This document shows, piece by piece, positions 8,155 to 38,257 of a stretch of DNA of 38,257 nucleotides (its first letter is position 1; each line of letters begins with the position of its first letter). Position numbers and translations under genes: made by a program. Source of the DNA: Candidatus Methylomirabilota bacterium (lineage in GTDB: Bacteria; Methylomirabilota; Methylomirabilia; Rokubacteriales; CSP1-6); the NCBI GenBank assembly GCA_036001065.1, contig DASYUQ010000209.1:1-38257 (forward strand), in the 5' to 3' direction. The notes beneath the pieces were generated by a model. That model made no database searches, was not told the origin of the DNA, and saw only the letters and a list, made by a program, of their open reading frames with translations.

Positions 8155-8925
8155 TCATCGGACGCCAGGGGACGGCGGCTGGAATCCCCGCCGCGCGAGG
8201 ATCGCCCGCCCCTCGGGCCCGACGAGCACGTCGATGAAGGCCCGGCCCAGCGCCTGGTGGTTGGAGGCCGCGACGACGGCGACCGGATAGACGATCGGCC
8301 GATAGGTGTCTTCCGGCGGGCGAAACGCCTCCTTCACGCGGTCCGCGCGCGCGGCGGCATCGGTCGCATAGACGAAGCCGGCCTCGACCTCGCCGCGGGC
8401 GACGTAGTCGAGGGCCTGGCGGACGTTCTCGGCGAAGACCAGCCTGGGGTGCAGCCGCTCCCACAGGCCGAGGTTGCGCAGGCTCTCCTCGGAATACTGG
8501 CCGACCGGCACCGTCTTCGGATTGCCGATCACGATCCTTCCCACCCGCGGGCCGAGCAGATCGCCAGGCTTCGAGAGATCGACGCGCGAGTCCGCGGGCT
8601 TGACGACGACCAGCACGTTGCGCGCGAACAGGCGGCGGGTGGCGCCGGCGATCAGCCCCCTCCGCTCCAGCTCGTCCATCTGCCGCTGGGCGGCCGAGAC
8701 GAAGAGATCGACCGGGGCACCGGCCTCGATCTGCTTCTGCAGCTCACCCGAGGCGCCGAGGTTATAGCGCAGCGTCAGCCCGGGCCGGCCTTCGACGAAG
8801 CGCCGGCCGATCTCTTCCACGGCCTCCTTCATGCTGATGGCCACGGACAGCGTGAGCTCGTCGGCGCGCGCCGAGCCGGCCGCCACCAGGAGCGTGAGCA
8901 GGACGAACCCGAGGCGAGCCATCAC
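8155..8925 (-). CDS. modA: Molybdate-binding protein ModA
   Basis: 256 residues with a signal peptide (FVLLTLLVAAGSARA, cleavage before DELTLS near residue 22). The mature part is a ModA/type-2 periplasmic binding protein: ISMKEAVEEIGRRF, YNLGASGELQKQIEAGAPVDLFVSA, GRIVIGNPKTVPVGQYSEESL, RGEVEAGFVYATDA, ending RRGFQPPSPG. It binds molybdate outside the membrane and hands it to ModBC. The stop codon lies at the inferred edge of the IS110 element, so the gene is intact but its partners modBC are now on the other side of a 1.57-kb oppositely oriented insertion. Confidence 0.9.
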   Translation of the reverse strand: MMARLGFVLLTLLVAAGSARADELTLSVAISMKEAVEEIGRRFVEGRPGLTLRYNLGASGELQKQIEAGAPVDLFVSAAQRQMDELERRGLIAGATRRLFARNVLVVVKPADSRVDLSKPGDLLGPRVGRIVIGNPKTVPVGQYSEESLRNLGLWERLHPRLVFAENVRQALDYVARGEVEAGFVYATDAAARADRVKEAFRPPEDTYRPIVYPVAVVAASNHQALGRAFIDVLVGPEGRAILARRGFQPPSPGVR

Positions 8926-8968
8926 GCCGGATTATACGCCGCAGCGCGCGGGGTCCCGCCGCCGTCGC

Positions 8969-9664
8969 TCAGGAGGCGCGGCGTTGCTGGATCGACGTCA
9001 GCGCCCAACTCACCGCGAAGACGAGCACCAGCAGCAGGATCGCCAGCGCGATGGCGATGTCGAAGTTGCCTTTGTTGGTCTCCAGCACCATCGCCGTCGT
9101 CAGGGTGCGCGTCTGGCCCTTGATGTTGCCGCCGACCATCATCGAAGCGCCGATCTCCGAGATCACGCCGCCGAAACCGGCCATCACCGCCGCCAGCATG
9201 GGCAGCCGCGCCTCGCGGAGCACGACCCACACCATCTGGGTCCGCGAGGCGCCCAGGCCCAGCAGCTGCAGCCGGAACGCTTCGGGCACGTGCTGCACGG
9301 CCGCCAGCGTGATCCCGGTGACGATGGGCGAGGCGATCACGGCCTGCGCGATGACGATGGCCGCCGGCGTGTAGAGGATCTCGAGGTCGCCGAACGGTCC
9401 GCTTCGCCAGAGCAGGATGGAGACGAAGAGCCCGACCACGACCGGCGGCAGACCCATCCCGGTGTTCACGGCGCTGACGACGAGCCGGCGGCCGGGGAAG
9501 CGGTTCAGCGCCAGCAGCACGCCCAGCGGAATCCCCATCAGGAGCGCCACCAGGGTCGCGGACCCCGACACGAGGAGCGACAGCCACAGGATCGACCAGA
9601 TCTCGACATCGCCGCCGACCAGCAGCCCGAGCGCCTGGCGAAGCCCCTCGACCAGCACGCTCAC
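8969..9664 (-). CDS. tupB: Tungstate ABC transporter permease TupB
   Basis: 231 residues, a hydrophobic permease with about five or six membrane helices and the ABC-permease cytoplasmic loop (EIGASMMVGGNIKGQTRTLTTAMVLET). The segments MGLPPVVVGLFVSILLWRSGPFG and TGITLAAVQHVPEAFRLQLLGLGAS are typical of TupB-type permeases. The start is 3 bp downstream of tupA's stop. It pairs with TupA upstream and presumably with the TupC-like ATPase at the far end of the locus. Confidence 0.87.
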   Translation of the reverse strand: MSVLVEGLRQALGLLVGGDVEIWSILWLSLLVSGSATLVALLMGIPLGVLLALNRFPGRRLVVSAVNTGMGLPPVVVGLFVSILLWRSGPFGDLEILYTPAAIVIAQAVIASPIVTGITLAAVQHVPEAFRLQLLGLGASRTQMVWVVLREARLPMLAAVMAGFGGVISEIGASMMVGGNIKGQTRTLTTAMVLETNKGNFDIAIALAILLLVLVFAVSWALTSIQQRRAS

Positions 9665-9667
9665 CGG

Positions 9668-10510
9668 CTACAGGTCCTCCTCCTTCTTGCCGGCGATCGG
9701 CACGAACAGCGCCTGGCCGTACCTGTCCCCGCCGAAGGTCTTGATCACCTCCTGCACCGCGGGCGAGACCATGAAGTCGGCGAAGGCCTGGCCGCCCGCC
9801 GCGTTGACCCGGGGGCCGTTGGCCGGGTTGACCTCCATGACCGAGTAGACATTGAGCAACGGCCGATCGCCCTCGACCATCACCTCGAGCGCCACTCGCT
9901 TGCGGAACGCCAGCAGCGTGGCGCGATCGGCGAGCGTGTAGGCCCTCCGGTCATCGGCGAGACCCAGAGTCGCCCCCATCCCCTGGCCCGACTCGATGTA
10001 CCAGGGCCCGGCGGGCGGGAGGCCGGCTTGTTTCCAGAGGTTCAGCTCCAGCGTGTGAGTGCCCGATTTGTCGCCTCGGGAGACGAAGCGCGCACCCGTC
10101 TCGGCGATTCTCTTCAACGCCGCCACCGCCCGCCTCTCTCCTTTGATCCTGGCCGGGTCGGCCTCGGGCCCGACGATGATGAAGTCGTTGTACATGACCA
10201 GACGCCGGTTGAGCATCCTTCCCTCGGCGACGTACTTCTTCTCGAGCTCCGGCGCGTGGGCCAGCGTCACGTCGGCCTCGCCCCGCGCCGCCAGCGCCAG
10301 CGCCTGGCCAGTGCCCACCGAGATCGTCTTGAGCGTCAAGCCAGTCTTGCCCTCGAAGATCGGCACCAGCACGTCGAGGAGGCCGGAGTCCTGCGTGCTC
10401 GTGGTCGTGGACAGGATGACGACCTTCGAGTCCGCCCGGGCGGCCCCGCCACAGACCAGGACCCCGAGGGCGGCCAGCCCACCAACGATCGACCGGTATC
10501 CCTGGCCCAT
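9668..10510 (-). CDS. tupA: Tungstate-binding protein TupA
   Basis: 280 residues: signal peptide (GGLAALGVLVCGGAARA, mature from ~DSKVV), then a tungstate-specific binding protein. Diagnostic TupA motifs are present: ILSTTTSTQDSGLLD (~32-46), FVSRGDKSGTHTLEL (~160-174) and GQGMGATLGLADDR (~194-207). The TTTS segment and the SRGDKSGTH loop are known anion ligands in this family, separating it from ModA. The ATG directly abuts an 18-bp palindrome (10511-10528), and there is no good ribosome-binding site in the preceding 12 bases. The nearest purine-rich site, GGAGGG, is ~27 bases away. Confidence 0.9.
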   Translation of the reverse strand: MGQGYRSIVGGLAALGVLVCGGAARADSKVVILSTTTSTQDSGLLDVLVPIFEGKTGLTLKTISVGTGQALALAARGEADVTLAHAPELEKKYVAEGRMLNRRLVMYNDFIIVGPEADPARIKGERRAVAALKRIAETGARFVSRGDKSGTHTLELNLWKQAGLPPAGPWYIESGQGMGATLGLADDRRAYTLADRATLLAFRKRVALEVMVEGDRPLLNVYSVMEVNPANGPRVNAAGGQAFADFMVSPAVQEVIKTFGGDRYGQALFVPIAGKKEEDL

Positions 10511-10528
10511 TATGCTTTGGCAAGCATA
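10511..10528. promoter_or_regulatory. Perfect palindrome touching the tupA start codon
   Basis: TATGCTT-TGGC-AAGCATA is a perfect 7-bp inverted repeat with a 4-bp spacer, ending exactly where the tupA ATG begins and lying between the modE-like regulator and tupA. The A/T-rich arms stand out in this GC-rich region. It looks like an operator or translation-controlling hairpin for the oxyanion transporter genes. The binding protein is not shown; the adjacent ModE-like protein is the obvious candidate. Confidence 0.5.
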
Positions 10529-10551
10529 GTTGAGCGCAAAACCCTCCGCAA

Positions 10552-10890
10552 CTACTTCCCCCTCCCGAACGATCGGTGGAAGTGGCGGTCCACGACCGTT
10601 TCCAGCCCCCGGCGGAAGCGCCAGTATCGCGTGAGGAACGCCTTACCCTCGCGCGTCAGCCTCGTTCCGCTCCGCGGTCCCCCCCCCGGCCTTCGCTCCA
10701 GCAACCGGAACCCCGCGGCCTTCTCCAGTTCCCGGAAGTACCCCCAGGCGTTCCGGTACGACATCCGCATCCGCGCCACCGCCTTCTTGAACGAGCCGAG
10801 GTCGTCGACGAGCTCCAGGAGTCGCGCGCGGCCGTCGCCGAACTTGACGCGACCGGCAAAGACGACCCACACCTTGAGCCGGGGCTTCAC
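10552..10890 (-). CDS. ModE-like winged-helix regulator without a Mop domain
   Basis: 112 residues from a GTG start. It is the LysR-type N-terminal winged helix-turn-helix of ModE: GDGRARLLELVDDLGSFKKAVARMRMSYRNAWGYFRELEKAAGFRLLER, followed by GTRLTREGKAFLTRYWRF. Full-length ModE carries C-terminal Mop/TOBE domains that bind molybdate. They are absent here, as in the short single-domain ModE-like proteins seen near oxyanion transporters. It is the first gene of the tup/mod locus, 41 bp before tupA, so it probably regulates these genes. How it would sense metal is unclear. No ribosome-binding site is evident before the GTG. Confidence 0.82.
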   Translation of the reverse strand: MKPRLKVWVVFAGRVKFGDGRARLLELVDDLGSFKKAVARMRMSYRNAWGYFRELEKAAGFRLLERRPGGGPRSGTRLTREGKAFLTRYWRFRRGLETVVDRHFHRSFGRGK

Positions 10891-11007
10891 GCAGGCTGCT
10901 CGCTTATGTCGAACTCGGAGAAGGTCGAGCGCACCGGGTCAAGCGTCGCCGCGGGCTGCCGGTGGCGGGCCTGAGGTCCGCCCGCCACCCAGCGCAACCG
11001 GCAGAAC

Positions 11008-11097
11008 CTAGTGCCGTTCCAACTATTCGCGCCTAGGAAGGCACCGTGTACGTCGTTCGTGGACAGATTTAGTATCAACAAGTTGGAACGGCACTAG
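11008..11097. mobile_element. 90-bp MITE-like element, copy 1
   Basis: The element is bounded by a perfect 17-bp terminal inverted repeat, CTAGTGCCGTTCCAACT (11008-11024 and its complement at 11081-11097). It is identical over all 90 bp to the copy at 18543-18632. Its first 43 bp and last 47 bp align with the two ends of the GIY-YIG-encoding element at 37960, with about 5 differences in the shared portions visible. It keeps a GGAAGG site and a GTG that correspond to the nuclease start, but the frame is destroyed. The right-hand CTAG contains the stop codon of the hydrolase-like gene on the minus strand. Confidence 0.85.
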
Positions 11098-16268: not shown

Positions 16269-16693
16269 GGTTCTGGGACACTTCTGCGCTGATCCCGCTA
16301 CTCGTCGCTGAGCCCACCACCCACCGCGTTCAGGCTTGGCTCCGGGCGGATCCCGACGTCGTGGTCTGGACCCTCACGCGTGTCGAGCTCCTGGACGCGC
16401 TCGCCCGCCGGCGCCGTGAGAAGCCCCGCACCGCGGAGCGCCTGCTCGCCGCGCGTCGAGAGCTCCTCGAGGCCTGGGAACGGTGGACCGAGATCATTGC
16501 GACGGAGATCGTCCGGCGCCAGGCGGAGCGGATCGTAGAGACCCATCCCTTGCGGACCGCGGATGCGCTCCAGATCGGAGCCGCTATCGTCGCCGCCGAG
16601 GAGGATCCATCCCGCCTGCAGTTCGTGACCCTCGACCGACACCAGGCCGTGGCGGCCGAGCGTGAGGGTTTCCTTGTACTCGGGCCGGAGTGA
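16265..16693 (+). CDS. VapC-type PIN-domain ribonuclease toxin
   Basis: 142 residues from GTG 16265 (overlapping the antitoxin stop), giving [13 protein letters not shown] at the N terminus. PIN-domain acidic residues are visible: Asp in FWDTSAL, Glu in TRVELLDAL, Asp in [11 protein letters not shown] and Asp in [16 protein letters not shown]. VapC toxins cleave tRNA or rRNA. The pairing of a Phd-type antitoxin with a PIN toxin is common. The frame extends upstream through the antitoxin gene, but only the overlapping start gives a normal PIN N terminus. Confidence 0.87.
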
Positions 16694-16745
16694 TCCGCAT
16701 CCGGCACGCGCTGCGCGCGTGCCCCCGCGTGATAGGATGAACAGG

Positions 16746-18545
16746 ATGCTGCAGCGCGACGACATCCGAAACATCGCGATCATCGCCCACGTCGATCACG
16801 GCAAGACCACCCTGGTGGACGCCATGCTCTGGCAGTCGGGGCTCTTCCGCGCCAACGAGTCGGTGCCCGAGCGCATCCTGGACTCCATCGACCTCGAGCG
16901 CGAGAAGGGCATCACCATCATGGCCAAGAACACGGCCATCAAGTACAAGGGCGTCCACATCAACATCGTGGACACGCCGGGCCACGCCGACTTCGGCTCC
17001 GAGGTGGAACGGACGCTGACGCTGGTGGACGGCGTGCTGCTGCTGGTGGACGCGGCGGAGGGGCCGCTGCCCCAGACGCGCTTCGTGCTGAAGAAGGCGC
17101 TGGAGGCGGGGCTGCCGCCGATCGTCGTCATCAACAAGATCGACCGCAGCGACGCCCGCCCGGCCGAGGTCCTCGACGAGGTCTACGACCTCTTCATCGA
17201 CCTCGACGCCGCCCAAGAGCAGCTCGAGTTCCCGGTGCTCTACACCAACGCCAAGGCCGGCACGGCGACGGCGGATCCGAAAGCGCCCGGAAAGTCGCTG
17301 GAGCCGCTGTTCGAGACGATCCTGGCCACCGTGCCCGCCCCGCGGTTCGACCCGGCCGGGGGGCTGCAGTTCCGGGGTGCCATGCTCGACTGGGACGATT
17401 ACGTCGGCCGTCTCGTCATCGGCCGGATCTTCAACGGTCGCATCCGCCAGGCCGATCGCGTCGCCGTCGTGCACCGCGACGGCTCGATCGAGTCCGCCAA
17501 GGTCACCGTGCTCTACGGCTACGAGGGGCTCAAGAGAATCGAGGTGCCGGAGGCCAGCGCTGGGGATCTGGTGGCCATCGCAGGTATCGAGGCTATCGAA
17601 ATCGGTGAAACAATCGCCGATCCGGAAAGCCCGCAAGCCCTACCCCTGATCCGCATCGACGAACCGACGGTGTCAATGCTCTTCTCCGCCAACGTCTCGC
17701 CATTCGCCGGCAAGGAGGGGCGCTTCGTCACCTCGCCGCAGCTGCGCGAGCGGCTCATGAAGGAGCGTCGGATCAACGTGGGCATCCGCGTCGAGGAAAC
17801 CGATTCACCCGACACCTTCCGCGTCTCCGGCCGCGGCGAGCTGCAGCTGGCGATCCTCATCGAGATGATGCGGCGCGAAGGGTTCGAGGCGGAGGTGGGC
17901 AAGCCCGAGATCATCACCCGCCAGGACCGCGGCCAACTCCTGGAGCCGATGGAATACCTGGTCATCGACATCCCCGAGGAGCACATCGGGGCGGTGACCC
18001 AGAAGGTCGGGCCGCGCCGGGGCGCCATGACGAAGATGGTCAACCACGGCACCGGACGCGTGCGCCTGGAGTACCGCATCCCGGCCCGCGGCCTCATAGG
18101 ATATCGAACGGAGTTTCTGACCGATACCCGAGGGACAGGACTGCTGAATCATCTGTTCGACGGCTGGGACGCCTGGCAGGGCGAGATCGCCCACCGTCAG
18201 AACGGCGCGCTGGTCGCCGATCGCGCCGGCCGCACGACCGCCTACGCCATCGACCACCTCCAGGCGCGGGGGGTGATGTTCGTGGGGCCCGGCCTCGAGG
18301 TCTACGAGGGCCAGATCGTGGGCGAGAACTCGCGCGACAGCGACATCGACGTCAACATCACCAAGGAGAAGCGGCTCACCAACATGCGCTCGTCCACCGC
18401 GGACGAGTCCGTCAAGCTCACCCCGCCCCGCATCATGAACCTCGAGCAGAGCCTGGAGTGGATCCGCGAGGACGAGCAGCTCGAGGTGACCCCGAAGTCG
18501 CTGCGCCTGCGCAAGCGCCAGCTGAGCGGCCGGCGCCGCTTCTAG
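16746..18545 (+). CDS. typA: Ribosome-associated GTPase TypA/BipA
   Basis: 599 residues, a complete translational GTPase. Motifs: [16 protein letters not shown] (G1), [14 protein letters not shown] (G2), [10 protein letters not shown] (G3), [10 protein letters not shown] (G4). EF-Tu-like domain 2, two EF-G-like domains ([21 protein letters not shown]) and the BipA-specific C-terminal domain ([28 protein letters not shown]) follow. ATG 16746 is chosen with AGGA 8 bases upstream; ATG 16737 is an alternative adding three residues. BipA assists 50S subunit assembly and stress adaptation. The TAG stop is within the CTAG that forms the left edge of the second 90-bp element, so the insertion lies exactly at the end of this gene and leaves it intact. 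Confidence 0.97.
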
Positions 18546-18632
18546 TGCCGTTCCAACTATTCGCGCCTAGGAAGGCACCGTGTACGTCGTTCGTGGACAG
18601 ATTTAGTATCAACAAGTTGGAACGGCACTAGT
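18543..18632. mobile_element. 90-bp MITE-like element, copy 2
   Basis: Identical over 90 bp to the copy at 11008-11097, with the same perfect 17-bp terminal inverted repeats. The left CTAG is the last base of the TypA Phe codon region plus its TAG stop. Flanks outside CTAG differ from copy 1 (cgccgctt / tacacctc versus cggcagaac / cgggcctc), so this is an independent insertion rather than a duplicated locus. Confidence 0.87.
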
Positions 18633-32734: not shown

Positions 32735-32823
32735 TGGTGCGAGAGGGGGGAGTCGAACCCCCAAGGGCTTTTGGCCCACTGGATCCTAAGTCCAGCGCGT
32801 CTGCCAGGTTTCGCCACTCTCGC
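32735..32823 (-). tRNA. tRNA-Leu (anticodon UAG)
   Basis: Read on the minus strand: acceptor GCGAGAG pairs with CTCTCGC, with discriminator A and an encoded CCA (32735-32737). The anticodon stem-loop is CTGGA-CTTAGGA-TCCAG, giving anticodon TAG. There is a long variable arm (GGGCC-AAAA-GCCC-type) as expected of class II leucine tRNA, and the T arm contains GGGGGTTCGACTCCCCC. 89 bases including CCA. It lies 30 bp upstream of tig on the same strand. Confidence 0.95.
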
Positions 32824-37959: not shown

Positions 37960-38257
37960 CTAGTGCCGTTCCAACTATTCGCGCCAAGGGAGGCGCCGTG
38001 TACCACACGTACGTGTTGCGGAGTGATCGAGATCAACGGCTCTACACCGGAACGACGCACGACCTCCGCACCCGAATCAAGCTGCACGCTGACGGAAAGG
38101 TGCGCGCGACCGCTTACCGACGGCCACTGGTACTCGTGTACTACGAGGCCTGCCTGAGTGGCGATGATGCGTTTCGCCGGGAACGGTTCTTGAAGACGGG
38201 GAAGGGTAAACGCTTCTTGCGCAACCGCCTCGCGTCGTTCCTGGCCAGATTTAGTAC
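37960..38257 (+). mobile_element. GIY-YIG element, parent form of the 90-bp repeats (right end cut)
   Basis: Starts with the same 17-bp repeat CTAGTGCCGTTCCAACT as the two 90-bp elements. Bases 37960-38002 align to the left 43 bp of those elements (3 mismatches). Bases 38233-38256 align to their right part beginning CGTCGTTC (2 mismatches). The 230 bp in between are absent from the short forms. By alignment the missing right end would lie about 22 bp beyond the window, giving a 320-bp element. A T-run (37939-37944) lies just outside its left edge. Confidence 0.8.
37998..38257 (+). CDS. GIY-YIG nuclease (UPF0213/YhbQ-like), partial at window end
   Basis: 86 codons visible from GTG 37998 (AAGGGAGG 4 bases upstream, inside the element end). 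It is a compact GIY-YIG domain: TYVLRSDRDQRLYTGTTHDL (the two tyrosine motifs, Tyr5 and Tyr16 with Gly18), RTRIKLH (Arg26, His30), ATAYRRPLVLVYYEA (Glu50), FRRERFLKTGKGKRFLRNRL. These single-domain nucleases cut DNA at one strand with a metal ion. If the right end matches the short elements, the frame continues 7 more codons and stops at the TAG of the terminal repeat, giving 93 residues and filling the element. Confidence 0.88.
   Translation, partial: MYHTYVLRSDRDQRLYTGTTHDLRTRIKLHADGKVRATAYRRPLVLVYYEACLSGDDAFRRERFLKTGKGKRFLRNRLASFLARFS

Follow-up and report, generated by a model that had tools for sequence, protein, structure and literature searches.

The 38,257-nucleotide stretch of DNA analysed here (the window), which is contig C209 of the draft genome of a Methylomirabilota soil bacterium (G000; 4.46 Mb in 239 contigs, estimated to be 100% complete), ends inside an insertion-sequence-like element whose sole gene encodes a stand-alone UPF0213/Slx1-like GIY-YIG nuclease, and this GIY-YIG-only mobile element is most probably mobilised by its own nuclease. 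With slightly more reserve, we favour the view that it represents a new class of DNA transposons in which a GIY-YIG nuclease serves as the transposase, characterised by a length of about 300 bp, a gene that is coextensive with the element, a stop codon located in the right terminal inverted repeat (TIR), and co-evolution of nuclease and repeat in six or more phyla, Patescibacteria among them. The occurrence in several phyla of relatives that have their own matching ends suggests a jumping gene that uses no known transposase.

The element is truncated by the end of the contig, where the reading frame is still open (Table 1), and the part missing from the window is equivalent to positions 38258-38279, with the right TIR lying just past the contig end. 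Five complete copies, each of 320 bp, are present elsewhere in the same genome (contigs C202, C33, C187, C5, and C116). They run from CTAGTGCCGTTCCAACT to AGTTGGAACGGCACTAG and contain a 93-codon GIY-YIG ORF as their only gene; no recognised transposase of the DDE, HUH, serine, or tyrosine type was found within the 320 bp. All five have the right end AGTTGGAACGGC(A/G)CTAG, and their 17-bp TIRs are perfect in four copies, with one mismatch in C116. The right TIR encodes the C-terminus of the protein (NKLERH, or NKLERR in C116), and its TAG is the stop codon. An initial annotation made from the window alone had predicted a right terminal repeat at 38263-38279, a full length of about 320 bp, 93 codons, and a stop at the TAG within the right repeat. 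Each of these features is seen in the complete copies, in which the repeat occupies the equivalent position, and the proposed near-coextensiveness of gene and element holds as well; a lack of the right repeat downstream, named in that annotation as evidence against the element, is thus not what was found. The left end, the ribosome-binding-site-like motif, and the GTG start also lie where they had been placed. The copies are not uniformly intact, as C33 has a stop at the codon of the catalytic glutamate (E62*) and C187 a G18R substitution in the YIG motif.

Table 1. Coordinates of the element, its short derivatives, and a tRNA gene in the window
Feature	Position	Strand	Remark or basis
GIY-YIG element	37960..38257	+	truncated by contig end; full length of 320 bp would end at 38279 (complete copies in G000)
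Left terminal inverted repeat CTAGTGCCGTTCCAACT, including CTAG insertion site	37960..37976	+	sequence
Ribosome-binding-site-like motif AAGGGAGG	37986..37993	+	sequence
GIY-YIG nuclease ORF, GTG start at 37998 (element base 39)	37998..38257	+	PF01541, 5e-11
Right subterminal arm, also retained in 90-bp derivatives	38234..38257	+	43/46 bp in common with short form
90-bp derivative at CTAG forming the stop codon of ORF 8831-11011	11008..11097	+
90-bp derivative at CTAG forming the stop codon of TypA/BipA GTPase ORF 16662-18545	18542..18631	+
tRNA gene	32738-32823	-	Rfam

A search with the 15-bp end core AGTGCCGTTCCAACT (at most one mismatch) recovered 351 ends in the genome versus 3 for a reversed-pattern control, and 349 ends were still recovered with a 20-mer consisting of the core and five subterminal bases of either arm (at most two mismatches). 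As 349 of the 351 ends carry the element's own subterminal sequence, essentially all such repeats in this genome are the element or its derivatives. Every TIR pair inspected encloses either an element of about 320 bp or a short one; no larger TIR-bounded element was found among these pairs, and the subterminal comparison extends to all but two of the ends. The total of recent insertions is about 170 elements, which, apart from the full-length copies, are nearly all 90-bp derivatives. This bears out on the scale of the genome the dispersal of the element as well as the short derivatives described in the initial annotation. Counting from paired halves, the full-length copies would number roughly 13-16, and since many contigs break within the repeat, the assembly under-represents them.

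The 90-bp form joins a left arm of 44 bp from the nuclease element to a right arm of 46 bp, and these match the known full-length arms at 41 of 44 and 43 of 46 bp, respectively (93% identity). Judging from these alignments, the short copies are MITE-like internal-deletion derivatives that have kept the TIRs of the full-length element, which itself is presumably autonomous. Sixteen of the 24 short copies read are identical, and because divergence from the consensus averages just 0.5%, the burst must have been recent. The 90-bp copy folds into a hairpin that pairs all 17 TIR positions (z = -6.1). On contig C54 (21844-21960, L222), a 25-bp unit reaching from the terminal to the internal CTAG of the short element is repeated five times head-to-tail. 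Ligation of partial units was considered for these tandem arrays and rejected, as repeated nesting into the internal CTAG probably explains them; the contig ends ahead of the expected right-hand remnants.

CTAG borders the element on either outer side in every one of the 29 placements read, a few of which are nested or overlap. No target consensus extends beyond these four bases, the flanks containing at most 0.34 bit per position. The tetranucleotide is about five-fold rarer in the window than expected (23 versus 108 sites). Where it forms the stop codon of a gene (Table 1), the stop is restored after insertion because the element itself begins with CTAG. A preference for stop codons was nonetheless rejected, as TAG stops of long frames are found at 19 of 25 elements compared to 11 of 16 background CTAG sites in the window. 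The search for full-length copies and empty-site alleles proposed in the initial annotation yielded both, including an empty allele for one full-length site. For this search, 57 family genomes were screened with the joined flanks of occupied sites. Uninterrupted alleles that have one CTAG were found for three short-copy sites (C159, C15:1455, and C15:2316) in a genome of the same genus that has zero TIR copies (G052; 91-92% identity across the junction), and for the full-length copy on C33 in G005 (78% identity, likewise a single CTAG), while at a fifth site (C36) G052 matched on one side only. Insertion is precise, with a single CTAG when the site is empty and CTAG at both ends when it is occupied. 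The target duplication amounts to 2-4 bp, the palindromic CTAG hiding its exact length (TA versus CTAG). The internal CTAG of the short form has itself received full-length or short elements (L008, L010, C26, and C54), and in two further cases (L006 and C3) the element has its terminal CTAG in common with a 90-bp copy.

The PF01541 domain is recognised in all 13 family members. Across 25 alignment rows, Y5 and R26 are invariant and Y16 and E62 nearly so, which means that the catalytic Tyr/Tyr/Arg/Glu residues of the GIY-YIG superfamily are present in the family, with losses in some copies. The AF2 model (pLDDT 94) presents a bare GIY-YIG fold, and no separate DNA-binding domain was seen in the 93-amino-acid protein. 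Its best fold match is the UPF0213 protein BH0048 (1zg2), followed by Slx1, a branched-DNA nuclease, and I-TevI, with Foldseek E-values of 1e-3 to 0.3 that support the fold family and not the function; the best sequence matches among solved structures are BH0048 (1zg2, 2e-9) and EF2693 (1ywl, 2e-7). Purifying selection on the nuclease is indicated by comparisons between lineages, in which pN is 0.23-0.30 versus a pS of 0.69-0.81; the lineages compared were G000, Methylomirabilis (G082), and one MAG each of Nitrospirae and Gemmatimonadetes. Within G000, the five copies differ from their own consensus by 17 nonsynonymous changes and 1 synonymous change, active-site losses among them. Constraint between lineages combined with decay within a genome marks the gene as belonging to an element and selected for its spread, rather than as a host gene, and is the usual pattern for transposons.

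A scan of 85,000 species genomes for the nuclease showed that the gene is paired with matching inverted repeats not only in Methylomirabilota but also in Nitrospirae, Gemmatimonadetes, Omnitrophota, Cloacimonadota, and Patescibacteria. Outside G000, CTAG-type elements were found in Methylomirabilis (L135), the Nitrospirae MAG (L136, with 23-bp TIRs), and the Gemmatimonadetes MAG (L137), where the ORF also ends in NKLERH followed by the stop and a second copy (L207) is truncated. The contig names of the latter two MAGs both carry '14_1009_16_40cm'. Different matched repeats accompany the nuclease genes of other groups, namely (A)CCCCGTTAGAGAT in Omnitrophota and Patescibacteria, ACCC(T/C)GTTAAATAA in Patescibacteria, a Deltaproteobacteria MAG, and others, and TGCCCCGTGGAATA in Cloacimonadota. 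Flanking inverted repeats scoring at least 12 were present at 38 of 92 nuclease loci versus 4 of 363 shuffled pairings, in which the upstream flank of one locus was paired with the downstream flank of another. Whereas the right repeat frequently codes for the protein C-terminus and stop, the left one has no coding role; as the two nevertheless match within each element, the repeat itself is maintained by selection or recent copying. In a nuclease tree based on 84 columns, in which most other forks are unresolved, the CTAG type forms one clade (SH-aLRT 97) whose nearest neighbours have CCCCGTTGGATA-like repeats. Repeat types cluster on this tree, with 19 changes versus 38.5 after shuffling and none of 200 shuffles as low, and the related elements in other phyla appear to carry co-evolved repeats of other types. 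Of the 287 genomes sampled from the phylum to which the Moraniibacteriota genome G099 belongs, 54 contain close homologues (E<=1e-28).

The initial annotation had regarded repeats that spread independently of the nuclease, or a nuclease conserved without repeats, as speaking against the element, and such a separation is found in part. Short TIR elements are abundant in G088 and G072 (250 and 95 TIR ends), two fragmented MAGs in which the full-length nuclease element was not found, and a tRNA-associated nuclease clade is repeat-less. On the other side, in at least one of their kin, G071, a short element (L239) encodes a nuclease C-terminus (RDERFLK...NKLERH and the stop) that reads into the TIR, and the nucleases with CTAG repeats form a single clade; on balance, we do not regard the separation as overturning the link between nuclease and repeat.

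Several further arrangements were observed among the relatives. Many MITE-like families of 75-240 bp with CTAGTGCCGTTCCAACT ends and differing interiors are present in G069, G072, G073, and G088 (L107-L111, L120, and L231-L241). An Omnitrophota genome (G103) has three copies of a nuclease element (L164, L200, and L210) that are about 90-93% identical and have unrelated downstream flanks, i.e., within-genome dispersal of a non-CTAG type, with an upstream similarity that partly extends past the TIR. The nucleases of the repeat-less clade (L146, L152, L155, L156, L100, and L101) directly precede intact tRNA genes whose 5' portion is duplicated upstream of the nuclease, with fragments of both tRNA halves at L156 that end in GGTCTGCAA near the anticodon; these look like tRNA-gene-targeting nuclease elements that leave the tRNA intact. 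Other TIR-bearing or related nucleases are embedded near the start of NAD-epimerase or purN-like genes, within their 5' end (L202 in G101:C32, L201 in G106:C217, and L138/L188 in G097:C23) and are followed by a second copy of the gene start, and at L202 a 106-bp unit comprising the element right end, leader, and gene start is tandemly repeated with 105/106 identity. Four-helix-bundle (S23 IVP-like) genes are interrupted by nuclease elements at '...SNIA' (L185, L189, L191, and L197; translations compared by eye). An exact 17-mer search of IMG/VR returned six contigs, one of which contains a 109-bp TIR pair; the other five have one identical flank and were rejected as the element, being a single repeated sequence that lacks a partner TIR. 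The plasmid collection gave one weak match only.

Since IS630 also prefers CTAG, the main alternative is a MITE-like cargo moved in trans by an IS630/Tc1-mariner DDE transposase with the GIY-YIG gene as a passenger, an explanation that we consider rather unlikely. IS630 inserts preferentially at the TA within 5'-CTAG-3' and duplicates the TA (Tenzen and Ohtsubo 1991, as cited in PMC2170065), and this duplication would fit junctions of the form C-TA[element]TA-G. IS630-type copies do occur in the phylum, one each in G082 and G087, the former starting with CTAGTG, and the TIR elements of G088 and G072 in which no full-length nuclease element was detected would also suit such a passenger. However, DDE_3 (PF13358) has 0 matches in G000, despite the completeness of this genome and its recent burst, and is likewise absent from G088, G072, G073, G069, G071, G070, G067, G095, and G096. 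The ends of the G082 copy start with CTAGTGT and then differ from the element TIR, no TIR of the element type is present within the locus examined around the G087 copy, and the TIRs of G000 belong almost without exception to the nuclease element or its derivatives. Neither purifying selection between lineages nor a nuclease tree that tracks repeat types, including non-CTAG ones, would be expected of a passenger gene. Counting against a nuclease-driven movement is that the draft assembly could conceal an unassembled transposon.

That the gene encodes a free-standing GIY-YIG homing endonuclease and enters cognate alleles through double-strand-break repair seems very unlikely to us, although GIY-YIG is a classical homing-endonuclease fold (PMC1564403) and the relatives in other phyla are lodged in certain host genes of the four-helix-bundle, NAD-epimerase, and purN-like kinds, some beside a repeated host-gene start. 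The roughly 170 insertions have just the 4-bp CTAG in common and no flanking homology, and perfect 17-bp TIRs and still-spreading 90-bp derivatives are not typical of homing genes. No intron was matched either, and a group I intron is excluded at the sensitivity of Rfam, which gave nothing at E<=5 for the surroundings of the C33 copy. The strong hairpin of the 90-bp copy and the many contigs that terminate in the element could also be taken to indicate REP/BIME-type repeats carried by chance by a domesticated host nuclease, or an assembly artefact, but both are extremely improbable. Complete copies lie within long contigs (C33 and C116), the copies decay individually within G000, the nuclease-TIR unit recurs in unrelated phyla, and the empty alleles by themselves go most of the way to refuting both readings.

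Under the favoured explanation of mobilisation by the encoded enzyme, we infer that the nuclease acts on the element ends. It would recognise the terminal repeats, either as duplex or as an extruded hairpin or cruciform, and would cut the element at its CTAG ends as well as the target at CTAG. Cleavage as CTA^G on both strands would produce 2-nt 3' overhangs and so leave element and target with self-complementary TA ends that host ligation or repair might then join to give CTAG at either side. Such overhangs are typical of GIY-YIG enzymes, for example I-TevI and Eco29kI, and at CTA^G they would explain TA-type junctions without strand transfer of the transposase type. Nuclease from full-length copies would move the short ones in trans. 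A nuclease that cuts every CTAG would be lethal, so a further specificity must exist, and transposition is not a known activity of GIY-YIG enzymes.

If this reading is correct, the element is among the smallest autonomous transposons known, adds a transposase chemistry, gives stand-alone UPF0213-type genes a function, and offers a very small system for asking whether a nuclease together with host ligation or repair suffices for transposition. It also accounts for the dispersed repeats of G000 and for their counterparts elsewhere in Methylomirabilota. Should an IS630-like enzyme move it, the element would still be new, as a conserved cargo nuclease inside a MITE-like unit.

To our knowledge, the described bacterial transposase chemistries are those of DDE, HUH, serine, and tyrosine enzymes, and GIY-YIG genes are known from homing and, together with reverse transcriptase, from Penelope elements. 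A bacterial TIR element with a GIY-YIG gene only was not found in the open-access literature, which omits most subscription papers. UPF0213/bacterial Slx1-like proteins (BH0048, EF2693) resemble the element nuclease in their stand-alone GIY-YIG domain size; no described link to terminal repeats was found for the solved proteins, whereas the element gene is TIR-bounded, multi-copy, and decaying copy by copy. The IS630/Tc1-mariner elements and their MITEs have CTAG insertion, TIRs, and short non-autonomous derivatives in common with the element, which differs from them by a GIY-YIG gene in place of any DDE transposase and by a length of 320 bp versus about 1.1 kb. GIY-YIG homing endonucleases (I-TevI and the free-standing Seg/mob enzymes) have the same nuclease fold and presumably likewise owe their selfish spread to an initial DNA break, but the element has TIRs and non-autonomous derivatives, lacks an intron, and inserts ectopically at dispersed sites of 4 bp. 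Penelope-like elements likewise combine a GIY-YIG endonuclease with mobility, although those are eukaryotic retroelements with a reverse transcriptase, which is lacking here.
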